Shown here: in pieces, positions 649 through 55,618 of the stretch | Numbering within the stretch: position 1 is the first letter of the stretch | Layout: each line of letters begins with the position of its first letter | From: Ectopseudomonas oleovorans | Lineage (GTDB): Bacteria > Pseudomonadota > Gammaproteobacteria > Pseudomonadales > Pseudomonadaceae | Direction of reading: 5' to 3' | NCBI RefSeq assembly: GCF_003052605.1 | Contig: NZ_QASO01000040.1 | Coordinates: forward strand, 1-64,000 | Length of the DNA stretch: 64,000 bases | The notes under the pieces: generated by a model | Told to the model about the DNA's origin: nothing | The model's database searches: none | Seen by the model: only the letters and a program-made list of their open reading frames with translations | Position numbers and translations under genes: made by a program

Positions 649-1602
649 AAAGAAATTGAAGCGCGCGCGCAAGGTCTGCCAGGCGGAGACTTTGCCCACC
701 TCGGGCCAGGCTTGCTGCAACACGTCGAACAAATGCTCGGCCAGGTGCACATGGCTCATATGCGCCTCGACGAAACGGCGCCCCTGCTCGGCGATCGCCT
801 CGGCCCGCGCCGGATCGCCGCGCAGATCGGCGAGGTGCCCGCGCAACTCGTCGAGGTCGGAATACAGCAGCAGGTGGACGCCATCCTGCAGGCCGATGAC
901 CGCCTCCTCGCTACCCTGGCGCCAGGCCAGGAGCAGGCAGCCGCAGGCCATCGCTTCGAAGTTCTTGGCCATGTACTCGCCGAGCCCGACATCGGCGCTG
1001 ACGAAATAGCGGATGCGGTTGAGCATCTCGCGATAAGGCTGGCCCGGCGCCGTGCGCAGCAGCTGCAGCGGCTCTTGCGCCGCCAACCGCTCCAGCAGTT
1101 CCTTGCGCCCGCCGTAAGCGGCGCTGGCGGTACGCCCGACGAAACCCAGCTCGATATCCCGCGCGCGCTCCTCGCAATAGATGGTGCGCGGGTCGTAGCC
1201 CTTGGCGAGGAAATGCACGTTGAACCCCTCGCCGCGCAGGCGTTCGGCGACGCTGGCGCCCGTCACCACGATTCGTGCGTTGGGCAGGGCCCGGTAGAAG
1301 CGACTGAAGCGCTCGCACCAACGGGAAGCGGCCAGGTAGTTCTGGCAGGCGTCTTCCTCGTAGATCAACAGCCCCGATATCTGCCGCAAGAAGGCGGTCT
1401 GGCGGCGGATGTTCTTGAAGTGCAGGTCCAGCAGCACGCGCTCATAACGCCCCAGATCGACGCCGCGCAGGTAGCGGCGCAGGTCGCGCTGCTCGTCCTT
1501 GCCCAGGATGCGCAAGTCGAGGTCGACCAGCTGCCCGAGCCGTTCATGAACGCAGGACAGATCCGGCTCGCGCCCGGCACTGCTGAGCGCCAGCACCTTC
1601 AT
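637..1602 (-). CDS. ssg: LPS/cell-surface glycosyltransferase (Ssg-like), 3' end remodelled by the IS
   Basis: A 321-residue protein of the glycosyltransferase-1 fold. It has an N-terminal Rossmann-like half ([10 protein letters not shown]) and a C-terminal half with [20 protein letters not shown] and ACGCLLLA, which matches the nucleotide-sugar binding region of GT4/CgeB-like enzymes. In P. aeruginosa the gene next to the LPS core cluster at this spot is ssg, of about the same length. Start: ATG at 1602 overlaps the TGA of the upstream GT2 gene (ATGA), so the two are translationally coupled; a longer in-frame extension to 1752 lies inside that gene and is unlikely. The last residues (GSV and the TGA at 637-639) come from the inverted-repeat end of the adjacent IS, so the native C-terminus has been replaced. 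The acceptor sugar is unknown. Confidence 0.75.
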
Positions 1603-12566: not shown

Positions 12567-15509
12567 TCAACTCAATCCCAGTTCGCGCCACAGGCGCATC
12601 ACAGCGCGGCGCTCATCCTGGAACTGATCCCCCGGCACCACTCCAGGCTGCTTCTGCAGCGCCTGGCGATGGGCCGCCGAGCGGTAATTTTTGTAGACCT
12701 CACGCAGCAACGCGGCATCCTCGGCGCCCATCAGACCGACCCGCTCCAGACCTTCCAGAATGCGGATGTTATCGGTGAACTCGAGTAGCTCCGGGTGTTG
12801 CCACGACCAAGCCAGAGCGGCGTATTGCACCATAAATTCGATATCGACGATACCACCGGCGTCCTGCTTCAGATCGAAGGAGGACGTGGCCTCGAAGGCA
12901 TTCGGCGCCGTTCCGGCCGCGGTATTTTTGTTGCCAAGGTTGTCACGCATCTTCGCCCGCATCTCGCTGACCTCGACGCGCAGCGCCTCGATATCGCGCT
13001 GACGACCGAGCACCTCGGCGCGCACGCGAGCGAATTCGCCGGCCAAACGCGAACATCCCACCAGCACCCGCGCGCGCACCAGCGCCTGATGCTCCCAGGT
13101 CCAGGCCTCGTTCTCCTGATAGCGCTGGAAGGCACCGAGCGAGCTGACCAGAAGCCCGGCTGCGCCCGATGGTCGCAGACGCATATCCACTTCATACAGG
13201 GCGCCGGAGGTGGTCTGAGTGGTCAGCAAATGGATGATGCGTTGGCCCAACCGGGTGAAGAACTGCGCGCCGTCGATGGGCTTGGCGCCGTCGGTCTCGG
13301 CCTGCGGGTCGCCATCATGAATGAACACCAGGTCCAGATCCGAGCCGTGGCCGAATTCCAGGCCACCGACCTTACCGTAGCCGACGATGATGAAGTCCGG
13401 GTCGCACGGTGTGCCGTCTGCACGGAACGGCCGACCATGACGCTGCACCGTATGCTGCCAGGCCAGCGCCAGCACCTGATCGAGAATCGCCTCGGCCAGC
13501 CAGGTGAGGTAATCCGACACTTTCATCAAGGGCAGCGTACCGGCGATCTCCGAGGCGGCCACGCGTAAGCTGTGGGCCAGCTTGAAATGACGCAGCGCCT
13601 CCATCTGCTGCTCCAGATCCTCCTCGGGAATGCGCACCAGTCGCTCACGCAACTCGGCCGCCAGTTCCGGTGCCAGCGGCGGCGAATACAACCGACCTTC
13701 ATTGAGCAACTCATCGAGCAGCAACGGGTAGCGGGCTATCTGCTCGGCAATCCAGGGACTGGCGGCGCAGAGCGTGATCAGTCGCTCCAGCGCCCCTGGG
13801 TTTTCAGTCAGAAGCACCAGGTAGGCCGAGCGCCGGGCGACCTTCTCTACCAACGGCAGCACCCGTTCCAGCACCAGATCCGGCTGGTCGTGCTCGACGG
13901 TCTGCGCCAGCAAGCGCGGAATAAAGGCATCCAGACGCTCGCGCCCGAGCCGCTGCATGGCACGCACCTGCGGCCCGTTGCGCAGATCGACGAGACGCCG
14001 ATTGGCCGTGACGGCCTCGACAAAGCCGGCCTCCTGCAACTGCAGCTGGGCAGCCTCATCATCCAGTGCGCCTTGCCATAAAGGCAGCCACTCGGCGCCG
14101 ACTGCGGTTTCGCCGGCCTGCGCCTCATCCTCATCGGGATCGGCGATCACTTGCTGGAAGTGCCATTCGATGCGACCACGCCAGTGCATCAGGCGCTCAT
14201 GGAAGCTCGACCAGTCGGCAAAGCCCATGATCGCCGCCACCCGCGCCTGATCCTGCGCATCGGCCGGCAGCATCTGCGTCTGCCGGTCACCGATGCCTTG
14301 CAGGGCATGCTCGGTATAACGCAGAAACTCATAACCTTCCTTCATCTCCGCAACCACCGCCGGCGGCAGGTAGCCTTGCCCTTCCAGCGTGGTCAACACC
14401 TTGAGCAGCGGCCGCTGCTGCAGACTGAGGTCACGTCCGCCATGGATCAGCTGGAAGGCCTGGGCGATGAACTCGATCTCGCGAATACCCCCCGCGCCGA
14501 GCTTGATGTTTTCGCTCATGCCCTTGCGCCGCACCTCCTGCTGGATCAGCAGCTTCATCGCACGCAGCGCTTCGATGGCGGAGAAATCCAGATAACGGCG
14601 ATAAACGAAGGGCCGCAGCATCTCCAGCAACTCGGCACCGGCGGCCTGGTCACCGCCGACCACGCGCGCCTTGATCATGGCGTAGCGCTCCCAGTCACGC
14701 CCCTGATCCTGGTAGTACTGCTCCAGCGCATTGAAGCTGAACACCAGCGCACCGCTGGAACCATAGGGGCGCAGGCGCATGTCGGTGCGGAACACGAAGC
14801 CGTCGACGGTGATCGCATCCAGTGCCTTGATCAGCTTCTGCCCCAGACGAATGAAGAACTCCTGATTATCCAGCGGACGCTTAACACCCTCGGTCTCGCC
14901 ACCTTCGGGATAGCCGAAGATCAGGTCGATGTCCGAAGACAGGTTGAGCTCGTGCGCACCGAGCTTGCCCATGCCGAGGATCACCATATGCTGCGGCTGG
15001 CCGCTGCGCCGGCCCACCGGCGTACCGAACTGCGCGCAATGGCGTGGGTACAACCAGTGATAGGCCAGATCGATGCAGGCATCGGCGAGATCGGACAGAT
15101 CGCGACAGGTTTCACCGAGCGCCGCCTGGCGGCTGAAGTCGCGCCAGATAATGCGCAGTTGCTGGCGATTGCGAAAACGCCGCAGGCAGCGCCCCAGGGC
15201 ATCCTCATCGGCACACTCAGCCAACTGCGCCTCCAGTTGCTGGCGCAGCTCGCCCGATGCCAGGCTGCGCTCCAGCTCACCGGACTCCGCCAGCGCGACG
15301 AACATCTGTGGATCACGCTGAGCCTGCTCAGCGACGAAATCGCTCAGCGCCGACACCTGCCGCCAGGCATTGCGGCGTTCTTGCGGCCAGGCCGCAACTC
15401 GCTCGACCAGCCCATCATGCTCGGCCAGCACCGCCTGCAATGACTGTTCGGCGCGCTCGGCAAGGGCGCTCAGGGAAGGGGGCAACTCGACCAACAACGG
15501 CAGGCTCAT
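12567..15509 (-). CDS. glnE: Bifunctional glutamine synthetase adenylyltransferase/deadenylase GlnE
   Basis: A 980-residue cytoplasmic enzyme that adenylylates and deadenylylates glutamine synthetase in response to PII and glutamine. Both nucleotidyltransferase domains are intact: LNLSSDIDLIFGYPEGGE near residue 190 is the N-terminal deadenylylase site, and FGHGSDLDLVFIHDGDP near residue 720 is the C-terminal adenylylase site. Helical linker and HD-like regions fill the rest, and the length is normal. ATG at 15509 follows AGGA. It diverges from aceE across a 270-base region that holds two operator-like palindromes. Confidence 0.95.
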   Translation of the reverse strand: MSLPLLVELPPSLSALAERAEQSLQAVLAEHDGLVERVAAWPQERRNAWRQVSALSDFVAEQAQRDPQMFVALAESGELERSLASGELRQQLEAQLAECADEDALGRCLRRFRNRQQLRIIWRDFSRQAALGETCRDLSDLADACIDLAYHWLYPRHCAQFGTPVGRRSGQPQHMVILGMGKLGAHELNLSSDIDLIFGYPEGGETEGVKRPLDNQEFFIRLGQKLIKALDAITVDGFVFRTDMRLRPYGSSGALVFSFNALEQYYQDQGRDWERYAMIKARVVGGDQAAGAELLEMLRPFVYRRYLDFSAIEALRAMKLLIQQEVRRKGMSENIKLGAGGIREIEFIAQAFQLIHGGRDLSLQQRPLLKVLTTLEGQGYLPPAVVAEMKEGYEFLRYTEHALQGIGDRQTQMLPADAQDQARVAAIMGFADWSSFHERLMHWRGRIEWHFQQVIADPDEDEAQAGETAVGAEWLPLWQGALDDEAAQLQLQEAGFVEAVTANRRLVDLRNGPQVRAMQRLGRERLDAFIPRLLAQTVEHDQPDLVLERVLPLVEKVARRSAYLVLLTENPGALERLITLCAASPWIAEQIARYPLLLDELLNEGRLYSPPLAPELAAELRERLVRIPEEDLEQQMEALRHFKLAHSLRVAASEIAGTLPLMKVSDYLTWLAEAILDQVLALAWQHTVQRHGRPFRADGTPCDPDFIIVGYGKVGGLEFGHGSDLDLVFIHDGDPQAETDGAKPIDGAQFFTRLGQRIIHLLTTQTTSGALYEVDMRLRPSGAAGLLVSSLGAFQRYQENEAWTWEHQALVRARVLVGCSRLAGEFARVRAEVLGRQRDIEALRVEVSEMRAKMRDNLGNKNTAAGTAPNAFEATSSFDLKQDAGGIVDIEFMVQYAALAWSWQHPELLEFTDNIRILEGLERVGLMGAEDAALLREVYKNYRSAAHRQALQKQPGVVPGDQFQDERRAVMRLWRELGLS

Positions 15510-15599: not shown

Positions 15600-15614
15600 T
15601 GTAGTTTTACTACG
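15600..15614. promoter_or_regulatory. Operator-like palindrome 1, glnE/aceE intergenic region
   Basis: TGTAGTTTTACTACG, a 6-3-6 inverted repeat (one end base mismatched). It is the reverse-orientation copy of the second site 53 bases downstream. The TGTA(A/G)T-N3-A(T/C)TACA pattern resembles the published HexR operator of gamma-proteobacteria, a sugar-phosphate-responsive repressor or activator of central carbon genes. The assignment to HexR is inference. Confidence 0.5.
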
Positions 15615-15652
15615 GAAGAAATGTATCCAGAGGGCTGAATCCGCCGTCGAAA

Positions 15653-15667
15653 TGTAGTAAAACTACA
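15653..15667. promoter_or_regulatory. Operator-like palindrome 2, glnE/aceE intergenic region
   Basis: TGTAGTAAAACTACA is a perfect 6-3-6 palindrome. Its centre is 53 bases from site 1, about five helical turns, so a protein could hold both sites on one DNA face. It ends 112 bases before the aceE start, a normal distance for control of aceE or of the divergent glnE. Confidence 0.55.
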
Positions 15668-15779: not shown

Positions 15780-18425
<2,646 letters not shown>

Positions 18426-53443: not shown

Positions 53444-55618
53444 TCATCGATTCACGGCAATGGCTTGGTTGTTCATGATGCGCGGAGTGATGAAAACCAG
53501 CAACTCGGCCTTGTTGTCGCTGACGATGTCACGACGGAACACTCGGCCCAAGAATGGCAGGTCACCAAGGAATGGGACTTTCTCTACACCCTTGGTCTGG
53601 GTGTTGGAGAACACCCCACCGATCACAATGGTCTCGCCATCATTGACCAGTACCTTGGCATTGACTTCGTTCTTGTTGATCGGCGGCACCCCGTCCAGGG
53701 CCCGGGCGAAGTCTGGCGCATCCTTGGTTACTTTCACTTCCATGATGATGCGATTATCCGGAGTAATCTGAGGAGTAACCTCTAGGGAGAGAGCCGCCTC
53801 CTTGAAGGATGTACTGGTCGCGCCACTAGAGCTGGCTTCCTGATAGGGCACTTCCTGCCCCTTCAAGATTTTCGCTGTCTCCTTGTCCGAAGTAACAACC
53901 TTGGGCTGGGAGACAATCTCGCCATTACCGGTCTTCTCCATGGCCGACAGCTGTAGATCCAGTGTCACATTGTCAGTAAGGAAGCCGATGCCTATACCTG
54001 AAGTACTGCCCAGAACCCCCATGTCGACGAATGGCACAGGAGCCACACCATCCTGCAGCGGAAAGTCGCCTACCGTATCGGTGCCCGGCAAATATTCCTG
54101 CCTGCTTTCATTATCGAAGGAAATTGCGTCCATGGAAGTTGCACCGTCCTTGCCGTAAACGCTCCAGTTTCCGCGACGAGTTTCCCCTCCCCAACGCACA
54201 CCCAAGGCCTTGTCGTAGTCCACGTTGGCCTCGACGATGCGCGCCTCGATCATTACCTGACGCACAGGAATGTCGAGCTGGGCAATGATACGCCGCAACT
54301 CATCCAGGCGATCCTGCGTCTGGTAAGCAATAATGCTGTTGGTGCGATCATCAACCGTTACAGAACCACGGGCATCGGATGATGCACCATCAGCACTGGT
54401 GACCGACTGAAACAGCTTCGCCATATCAGCAGCCTTGGCATAATTCACCTGAATCAGTTCACGACGCAGCGGAGCCAGCTCAGCAATTTGCTTTTGCGAC
54501 TCCAACTCCTGACGCTCACGAGCGGCGATCTCATCTGCCGGAGCCACCAGCAAGACGTTACCAACCTGGCGCTTATCCAGCCCCTTGGTCTTCAGCACCA
54601 GGTCCAACGCCTGATCCCATGGCACGTTCTGCAAACGCAGAGTGATATTGCCGGCGACAGTATCGCTTGCAACCAGGTTCAGATCGGTAAAGTCCGCAAT
54701 CAGCTGCAGCACCGAACGCACGTCGATATCCTGAAAGTTGAGCGACAATTTCTCCCCGGTATAAGCAAAGCGCTCAGCCTTGCGGCGTTCTACGTCATCC
54801 TGAGTGAGAGGTTTGACACTCAACGTCAGCCTGTTCTCGGTCTGGTAAGCCAGGTAATCGTATAACCCGACTGGTTCAATCACGATACTGGTTCTGTCTG
54901 CGCTACCCGTAGCACTGACGAACTGCACCGGCGTGGCGAAATCCTTCACATCCAGCCGTACACGCAGCGACTCGGGCAGGTCAGTCTTGGCGAAGTCCAG
55001 ACGAATCTTCCCACCCTGCTCTTGGATATCAGGACTGATCGATGCATCGGAAAGGGTAATGACGACATTACCCTCACCCTGCTCCCCACGCTGAAAGTCG
55101 ATATTACTGATTGCTTTCGCTTGCGGCCCGTAGGCTTTCTTGGGTGCAACCGCCGCTACCGAAGCAGGCACCGAGGCTGAGGGCCGCGACGCGACGGCAG
55201 AAGAATCTCCAACCAAGACATACAGATCATTACCCTCAACTCGAGTGCTGTATGGCGCCAGACTGGTGAGATTGACAATCAGACGGGTACGGTCCTTCGC
55301 CTCGACAATGGTAATGCTACGCGCATTACCGACACCCAGTTCACGATTCTTTGAGCCGAGCTTGTTCGACACGCCCGGCAGGTCCAAAGCGATACGCGCA
55401 GGCTGCTCGATGGTATAGCCGCGAGGAGCCGTTACCGGCTCATCGAAGGAAAGCTTCAGCTCAACTCGATCACCAGGCAAACTGGCGACATTCAAATCCT
55501 GAAGATTGGCCGCCAATACCGCGGGCGACAGCAGCGCCGCCAGCAGAACGACGCTAAGACGCGAAAGAGAGCTGTTCATTTTCGTATCCCGTGTGGCAGA
55601 CAGATTATTTATATTCAT
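53444..55618 (-). CDS. pilQ: Type IV pilus secretin PilQ
   Basis: A 724-residue outer-membrane secretin that forms the pilus exit pore. A signal peptide (LSVVLLAALLSPAVLA) is followed by two AMIN domains that bind peptidoglycan (LNVASLPGDRVELKLSFDEP; NIDFQRGEQGEGNVVITLSD), an STN/N0 domain (LSLNFQDIDVRSVLQLIADF), an N1 domain, and the secretin core (QVMIEARIVEANVDYDKALG to VPFLGDLPFLGRVFRRDIVS). Start: ATG at 55618 has GAGG at good spacing; ATG at 55579 (MNSSLSRL) matches the PAO1 start and is the alternative, giving 711 residues. The start of the gene follows pilP by 16 bases. Confidence 0.94.
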   Translation of the reverse strand: MNINNLSATRDTKMNSSLSRLSVVLLAALLSPAVLAANLQDLNVASLPGDRVELKLSFDEPVTAPRGYTIEQPARIALDLPGVSNKLGSKNRELGVGNARSITIVEAKDRTRLIVNLTSLAPYSTRVEGNDLYVLVGDSSAVASRPSASVPASVAAVAPKKAYGPQAKAISNIDFQRGEQGEGNVVITLSDASISPDIQEQGGKIRLDFAKTDLPESLRVRLDVKDFATPVQFVSATGSADRTSIVIEPVGLYDYLAYQTENRLTLSVKPLTQDDVERRKAERFAYTGEKLSLNFQDIDVRSVLQLIADFTDLNLVASDTVAGNITLRLQNVPWDQALDLVLKTKGLDKRQVGNVLLVAPADEIAARERQELESQKQIAELAPLRRELIQVNYAKAADMAKLFQSVTSADGASSDARGSVTVDDRTNSIIAYQTQDRLDELRRIIAQLDIPVRQVMIEARIVEANVDYDKALGVRWGGETRRGNWSVYGKDGATSMDAISFDNESRQEYLPGTDTVGDFPLQDGVAPVPFVDMGVLGSTSGIGIGFLTDNVTLDLQLSAMEKTGNGEIVSQPKVVTSDKETAKILKGQEVPYQEASSSGATSTSFKEAALSLEVTPQITPDNRIIMEVKVTKDAPDFARALDGVPPINKNEVNAKVLVNDGETIVIGGVFSNTQTKGVEKVPFLGDLPFLGRVFRRDIVSDNKAELLVFITPRIMNNQAIAVNR

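Follow-up and report, generated by a model that had tools for sequence, protein, structure and literature searches.

Which regulator reads the two short palindromes that lie between the divergent glnE and aceE genes of Ectopseudomonas oleovorans, and do the two sites act together? A preliminary description of the window, the whole 64,000-nucleotide stretch of DNA analysed here, placed twin palindromic 15-mers in this intergenic region with centres 53 bp apart, and both are present exactly where it put them (Table 1). Their centres are at 15607 and 15660, the outer span is 68 bp, and their first bases lie 180 and 127 bp ahead of the start codon of aceE. The distal copy, TGTAGTTTTACTACG, matches the reverse complement of the proximal copy, TGTAGTAAAACTACA, at 14 of 15 positions, the difference being one end base. 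With up to two mismatches allowed, TGTAGTWWWACTACA matches the window twice, both times at aceE, and as 100 shuffles of the window gave a mean of 0.02 matches, a maximum of one and never two, a chance origin of the pair is excluded. Genome-wide, exact TGTAGTNNNACTACA occurs in two places, the proximal aceE site and upstream of an rpiR-family gene (rccR); with one mismatch, the distal aceE site and one unrelated place (C70:19440) are added.

Table 1. Features of the glnE/aceE region (window coordinates; conservation counts refer to the 80 Pseudomonas regions from the best 80 of 591 loci).
Feature	Position	Strand	Basis or remark
Distal RccR operator, TGTAGTTTTACTACG	15600..15614	.	1 mismatch to palindrome
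Proximal RccR operator, TGTAGTAAAACTACA	15653..15667	.	Perfect palindrome
Predicted aceE -35, CTGAAT	15635..15640	+	Between operators; CTGAAA/ATGAAA/CTGAAT in 73/80 regions
Predicted aceE -10, TAAAAC	15658..15663	+	Inside proximal operator, 17 bp after -35; 80/80 regions
aceE, pyruvate dehydrogenase E1, controlled gene	15780..18425	+	ORF; TIGR00759 aceE equivalog (NCBIfam), 1486 bits
glnE, divergent neighbour	12567..15509	-	ORF; NF008292 equivalog (NCBIfam), 1310 bits

Both sites have the form TGTAGT-N3-ACTACA, that of the 15-bp operator of RccR, a KDPG-sensing RpiR-family paralogue of HexR (PMC5489143). In P. fluorescens SBW25, RccR is reported to bind TGTAGTTTTACTACT and TGTAGTAAAACTACA upstream of aceE: ChIP-seq gives a double peak there, binding was also seen by surface plasmon resonance, and footprinting with DNase I and hydroxyl radicals shows hypersensitive and protected tracts between the two sites. 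RccR binding there encompasses the mapped aceE start site and shows apparent cooperativity, and KDPG reduces the affinity of RccR for the aceE sites (PMC5489143). Gel shifts demonstrated that the P. aeruginosa RccR also binds aceE, and its complex with KDPG is a tetramer with nine contact residues (PMC10810197); aceE is repressed by RccR in both SBW25 and PAO1 (PMC5489143, PMC10810197). The gene, the presence of two sites and the member of the regulator family are the same as here, and SBW25 and PAO1 belong to another species group than the genome of the window. Relative to SBW25, the proximal site of the window is identical and the distal site differs in the last base only. The spacing in SBW25 is stated as 68 bp (PMC5489143), a value that in the window corresponds to the outer span rather than to the 53 bp from centre to centre; the Pseudomonas regions (best 80 of 591 loci) have start-to-start distances of 52-53 bp and outer spans of 67-68 bp. 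The feature is the published RccR operator pair of Pseudomonas aceE (PMC5489143). That the two 15-mers are RccR operators of aceEF we regard as close to certain, and for the account as a whole, an RccR operator pair of aceEF with repression by the tetramer and release by KDPG, we put the probability at roughly 0.9.

The genome (5.2 Mb in 143 contigs) has two matches to the RpiR profile (PF01418). One is HexR, encoded beside zwf. The other, of 288 residues, matches PDB entries 8k3b (residues 1-288) and 8ju9 (1-280) with E <1e-160, and 8JU9 is the P. aeruginosa RccR (PMC12713135). All nine KDPG contact residues are kept, and the genome encodes an RccR orthologue distinct from HexR. The rccR gene and a second gene for glucose-6-phosphate dehydrogenase (G6PD_N) point away from each other (L017/L001, C36 near 62992, and L016, C90 near 40126), as do hexR and zwf, resulting in two paralogous regulator/zwf pairs.

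About 90 bp upstream of rccR, an exact copy of the 15-mer is nested in a perfect TGTAGT-N14-ACTACA, the core of the long RccR site in this genome; the same nested arrangement is reported at SBW25 rccR in degenerate form (PMC5489143). Perfect N14 sites also precede aceA (L108), a malate synthase G gene (L119) and a gene for a 131-residue protein, and sites with one mismatch precede pntAA and pckA, gene names that, like edd, were assigned by reading of their sequences. A second malate synthase G gene (L118) has no N14 site within two mismatches. Of the published RccR targets tested (aceA, glcB, pntAA, pckA and gap) all have such a site, gap (contig C54) only by a two-mismatch site beside the start, a level that is also reached by chance. 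Three further one-mismatch sites (L125, L126 and L128) were left out of the regulon as they occur in approximately the number expected by chance (within two mismatches there are 60 N14 matches versus 67 for the reversed control). Two of these are near central metabolism, between etf genes (L125, 1501-1526) and before a pyruvate kinase gene (L128, 1501-1526), with the gene names again taken from reading of the sequences. The perfect long site at L120 (1501-1526) precedes the 131-residue protein (1065-1463, minus strand), which has no Pfam match and is possibly the counterpart of PFLU2154, a hypothetical target in SBW25 (PMC5489143). A second-type GAPDH gene is present four times in the assembly (L112-L115; contigs C32, C72, C73 and C85), beside a transporter-like gene, and the copies do not differ within the frame that was compared. 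This is presumably an arsenate-resistance GAPDH/transporter pair, repeated in the assembly or in the genome.

The preliminary description had likened the pair to HexR sites, a reading in which HexR would bind both and repress aceE until KDPG appears, and had named HexR targets without the motif as a refutation. The HexR-target regions examined do lack it: they carry TTGT-N7-ACAA instead, with one site at hexR/zwf and two at edd/gap, and at these HexR-type positions the 15-bp TGTAGT site is absent even with three mismatches allowed. Conversely, the only match to TTGTN7-8ACAA in the window is at 53883, far from aceE. The half-site and the 15-bp form do resemble the HexR motif of Shewanella, and the NCBIfam HexR subfamily model, with a cut-off of 296 bits, matches RccR (308 bits) as well as HexR (483 bits), so that automatic annotation can name an RccR HexR. 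Pseudomonas HexR operators (consensus TTGT-N7-8-ACAA, cited in PMC5489143) do, however, serve a paralogous regulator with the same ligand, KDPG, through a different spacer and half-site, SBW25 aceE has been assigned to RccR and not to HexR (PMC5489143), and the aceE site was found in none of five HexR-only genomes described below. Regulation of the pair by HexR is thus very improbable. What stands from the preliminary description is the aceE operator pair, its tie to KDPG and a probable cooperative or looped complex; the motif, and with it the regulator, is that of RccR.

Conservation was evaluated in the best 80 of 591 confirmed Pseudomonas aceE loci together with the window which, after removal of a locus with 102 bp upstream (L078), gave 80 regions. 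Within this sample, the palindromes are retained in relatives: the proximal operator is identical in 80/80 regions, centre included, and the distal operator is present within two mismatches in 77/80, at a spacing of 52 bp in 67 regions and 53 bp in 10. The three regions without a distal operator at this level are from P. baltica, P. entomophila 6C6 and P. massiliensis (L067, L079 and L082), and all have kept the proximal site. At its final position (15614 in the window), the distal operator has T in 66 and G in 11 of the 77 regions (best 80 of 591 loci) and never the palindromic A, which does occur outside the family of the window. Averaged over positions in the same best 80 of 591 loci, the most frequent base has a share of 1.00 in the proximal and 0.96 in the distal operator, compared with 0.70 in the stretch that separates them, 0.63 on the upstream side and 0.87 on the downstream side, so that the aceE leader is also well kept. 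A scan of the aceE upstream region for the sigma-70 consensus gave nothing above the threshold, and the -35 sequence predicted in Table 1 scores below it; the TAAAAC of the predicted -10 is invariant because the proximal operator is invariant. The layout of these elements suggests that the proximal operator lies over the -10 element and the -35 element between the operators, in agreement with the start site mapped inside the RccR-bound region of SBW25 aceE (PMC5489143).

For a wider survey, 244 genomes were drawn from the order, of which 158 have an RccR relative at E up to 1e-20, and 80 were chosen to span the families and RpiR classes. An aceE gene was found in 79 of the 80 and a second aceE match in 10, two of which were included; 80 aceE upstream stretches and 74 rpiR genes were compared. 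The RpiR tree separates into two clades, each with support of 100/100, with 14 HexR and 62 RccR rows; one protein (G007) is on a long branch and perhaps misplaced. All 62 RccR rows have His at residue 164, a KDPG contact, where all 14 HexR rows have Leu or Met. At position 270, where P. aeruginosa needs a lysine to sense KDPG, only 39/62 RccR-clade rows have Lys, and KDPG sensing outside Pseudomonas is therefore not assured.

With one mismatch allowed and within 400 bp of aceE, TGTAGT-N3-ACTACA is present in 25 of the 57 RccR-clade genomes outside the family of the window, is missing in the other 32, and was found in none of 5 HexR-only genomes and none of 12 without an RpiR protein (Fisher p 0.0003, uncorrected for kinship). 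These counts omit G003, with an RpiR protein outside the tree, and G092, with no aceE match. The same search returned 0.1 of 57 in shuffled sequence and 0/57 with eight other half-sites. The aceE operator pair recurs in other families of the order in which the RccR clade is present. A TGTAGT-type site precedes rccR itself in only 7 of the same 57 genomes.

A variant, TGTAAA-N3-TTTACA, was found at aceE with up to one mismatch in 9 of the 57 (0.05 in shuffled sequence), nearly all without the TGTAGT site, and three genomes of f41 have TGTAAA sites before rccR. Seven RccR-clade genomes from seven families (L157, L175, L190, L192, L203, L211 and L213) have exact TGTAAA-N3-TTTACA palindromes before aceE, several of them at a similar distance of about -315 to -343. 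A pairing of TGTAAA sites with an altered recognition helix was rejected, as the helix is the same in both groups; either the same protein therefore reads both types of site or those with TGTAAA belong to a different regulator. Half-sites may have drifted to TGTAAA in a sub-clade with the recognition helix unchanged. In two f6 genomes (G048:C1:2533707-2538054 and G225:C28:20968-24052) a HexR-clade rpiR gene precedes aceE by 2-3 kb in the same orientation, and no TGTAGT site was found upstream of aceE in either.

To compare spacing, 39 of 40 matched genomes of f37, 38 of 39 of f44 and 30 of 41 of f36 were used, the 30 loci of f36 replacing seven regions of the first sample and 11 matched genomes being left out; a few stretches were taken over from the wider survey. 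Pairs were assigned by a rule blind to phase, which took the best TGTAGT-type site and then its best partner 25-200 bp away with up to two mismatches to TGTAGT, TGTAAT or TGTAAA halves. In f37, 38 pairs have spacings of 61-63 bp (10), 71-74 bp (5), 82-84 bp (20) and 92-94 bp (3), and nowhere else, with a phase statistic R(10.5) of 0.88 and p at the 1e-5 floor versus uniform spacing. When each of the 15 genera is represented by one value, its smallest spacing, R is 0.92 with p again at the 1e-5 floor. By f37 alone, the period is only loosely fixed (R of 0.80 at 10, 0.88 at 10.5 and 0.88 at 11). Comparisons inside single genera of f37 give differences of 0-2, 10, 11, 22 or 31 bp and never of 3-9 bp. 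All 37 pairs of f44 are at 71-73 bp, a single class, as are the 80 pairs found at 51-53 bp in 84 regions from the family of the window (f1), in which three regions have no partner and the second aceE of G094 has no site at all; in f2 and f34, 6/6 pairs are at 51-52 bp. Taken together, the 161 pairs of these five families occur only at 51-53, 61-63, 71-74, 82-84 and 92-94 bp. When each pair is put into a class by rounding to 10.4, the classes average 52.1, 61.4, 71.7, 82.9 and 93.0, with a fitted step of 10.34 bp per class and an intercept of -0.15. The 19 pairs from 30 regions of f36 are spaced by 155-190 bp, and their phase is weak (R 0.47, p 0.02). Shuffled controls gave a partner in 13% (f37) and 11% (f44) of cases, with R of 0.08 and 0.17. 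Among the titles and opening abstract lines listed from one open collection of papers, none reports how the aceE pair is spaced or whether it loops, and the near-whole-turn spacing across families goes beyond the literature found for the RccR aceE pair.

As the spacing takes only values near whole helical turns, a loop is favoured, and we consider it likely, from this regularity in the sequences, that the pair acts through a DNA loop. A phase kept over four added turns fits a loop and hardly a side-by-side contact between proteins. At low KDPG, as in growth on acetate, tetrameric RccR would occupy both aceE sites and keep pyruvate dehydrogenase off. Once occupied, the two sites would point to one side of the DNA, and a bridge between them could close a small loop around the core promoter in which the proximal site covers the -10 element; KDPG from the Entner-Doudoroff pathway would weaken RccR at the 15-bp sites and so release aceEF. 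One tetramer might hold both operators, as RccR is a tetramer (PMC10810197). By eye, there are conserved promoter-like blocks between or over the operators in f1, f37 and f44, so that a loop would enclose the promoter in all three. We lean towards the pair being an old looping switch of several families, in which RccR tetramers would bridge operators with the promoter in a loop of 5-9 turns, the loop length would change in whole-turn steps and KDPG would open it.

The two sites could instead function without a loop, the proximal one blocking RNA polymerase and the distal one acting independently, with the promoter fixing the distance. In Pseudomonas the predicted -35 between the sites and -10 within the proximal site could by themselves hold the distance, and three regions there (best 80 of 591 loci) have one site only. 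Independent sites have, however, no need of a rule by which spacings within f37 genera change by 10, 11, 22 or 31 bp and never by 3-9 bp, and the apparent cooperativity in SBW25 (PMC5489143) also argues against this arrangement, which we judge unlikely. No more probable is that the phase reflects a distal regulator touching RNA polymerase, in the style of a class I activator, rather than contact between operators. Spacings of ~61, 72, 83 and 93 bp do resemble known class I activator positions, but, judged by reading of the conserved blocks, the distance from the distal site to the predicted -10, ~57 bp in f1, ~56 bp in f44 and ~63/74/85/95 bp in f37, has no phase common to the families, whereas the operator-operator phase is shared across them. 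Moreover, RccR is a repressor of aceE in SBW25 and PAO1 (PMC5489143, PMC10810197).

A loop bridged by RccR would have parallels in other RpiR-family regulators. E. coli MurR and V. vulnificus NanR also have two sites, as RccR does at aceE, and a MurR tetramer has been proposed to bridge two adjacent sites, with bridging also discussed for NanR (PMC12713135). These regulators differ from RccR in their ligands and targets, the MurR sites are 17 bp apart, and a series of whole-turn spacings is absent from the descriptions of MurR and NanR in the part of PMC12713135 available. Similarly, in the available parts of PMC5489143 and PMC10810197 we found no discussion of the spacing of the aceE pair in other families.

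For the window itself, the result is mainly a corrected name, RccR in place of HexR, the sites themselves having been published. Across the order, evolution has in effect run a helical-phasing experiment, and its outcome suggests that the two RccR sites cooperate via a loop. One and the same ligand loosens RccR at aceE and tightens it at aceA, by a mechanism that was called unclear in the 2017 paper (PMC5489143). The natural variants, with spacings from 61 to 94 bp and with a single site in three Pseudomonas, bear on these opposite effects of the ligand at aceE and aceA.
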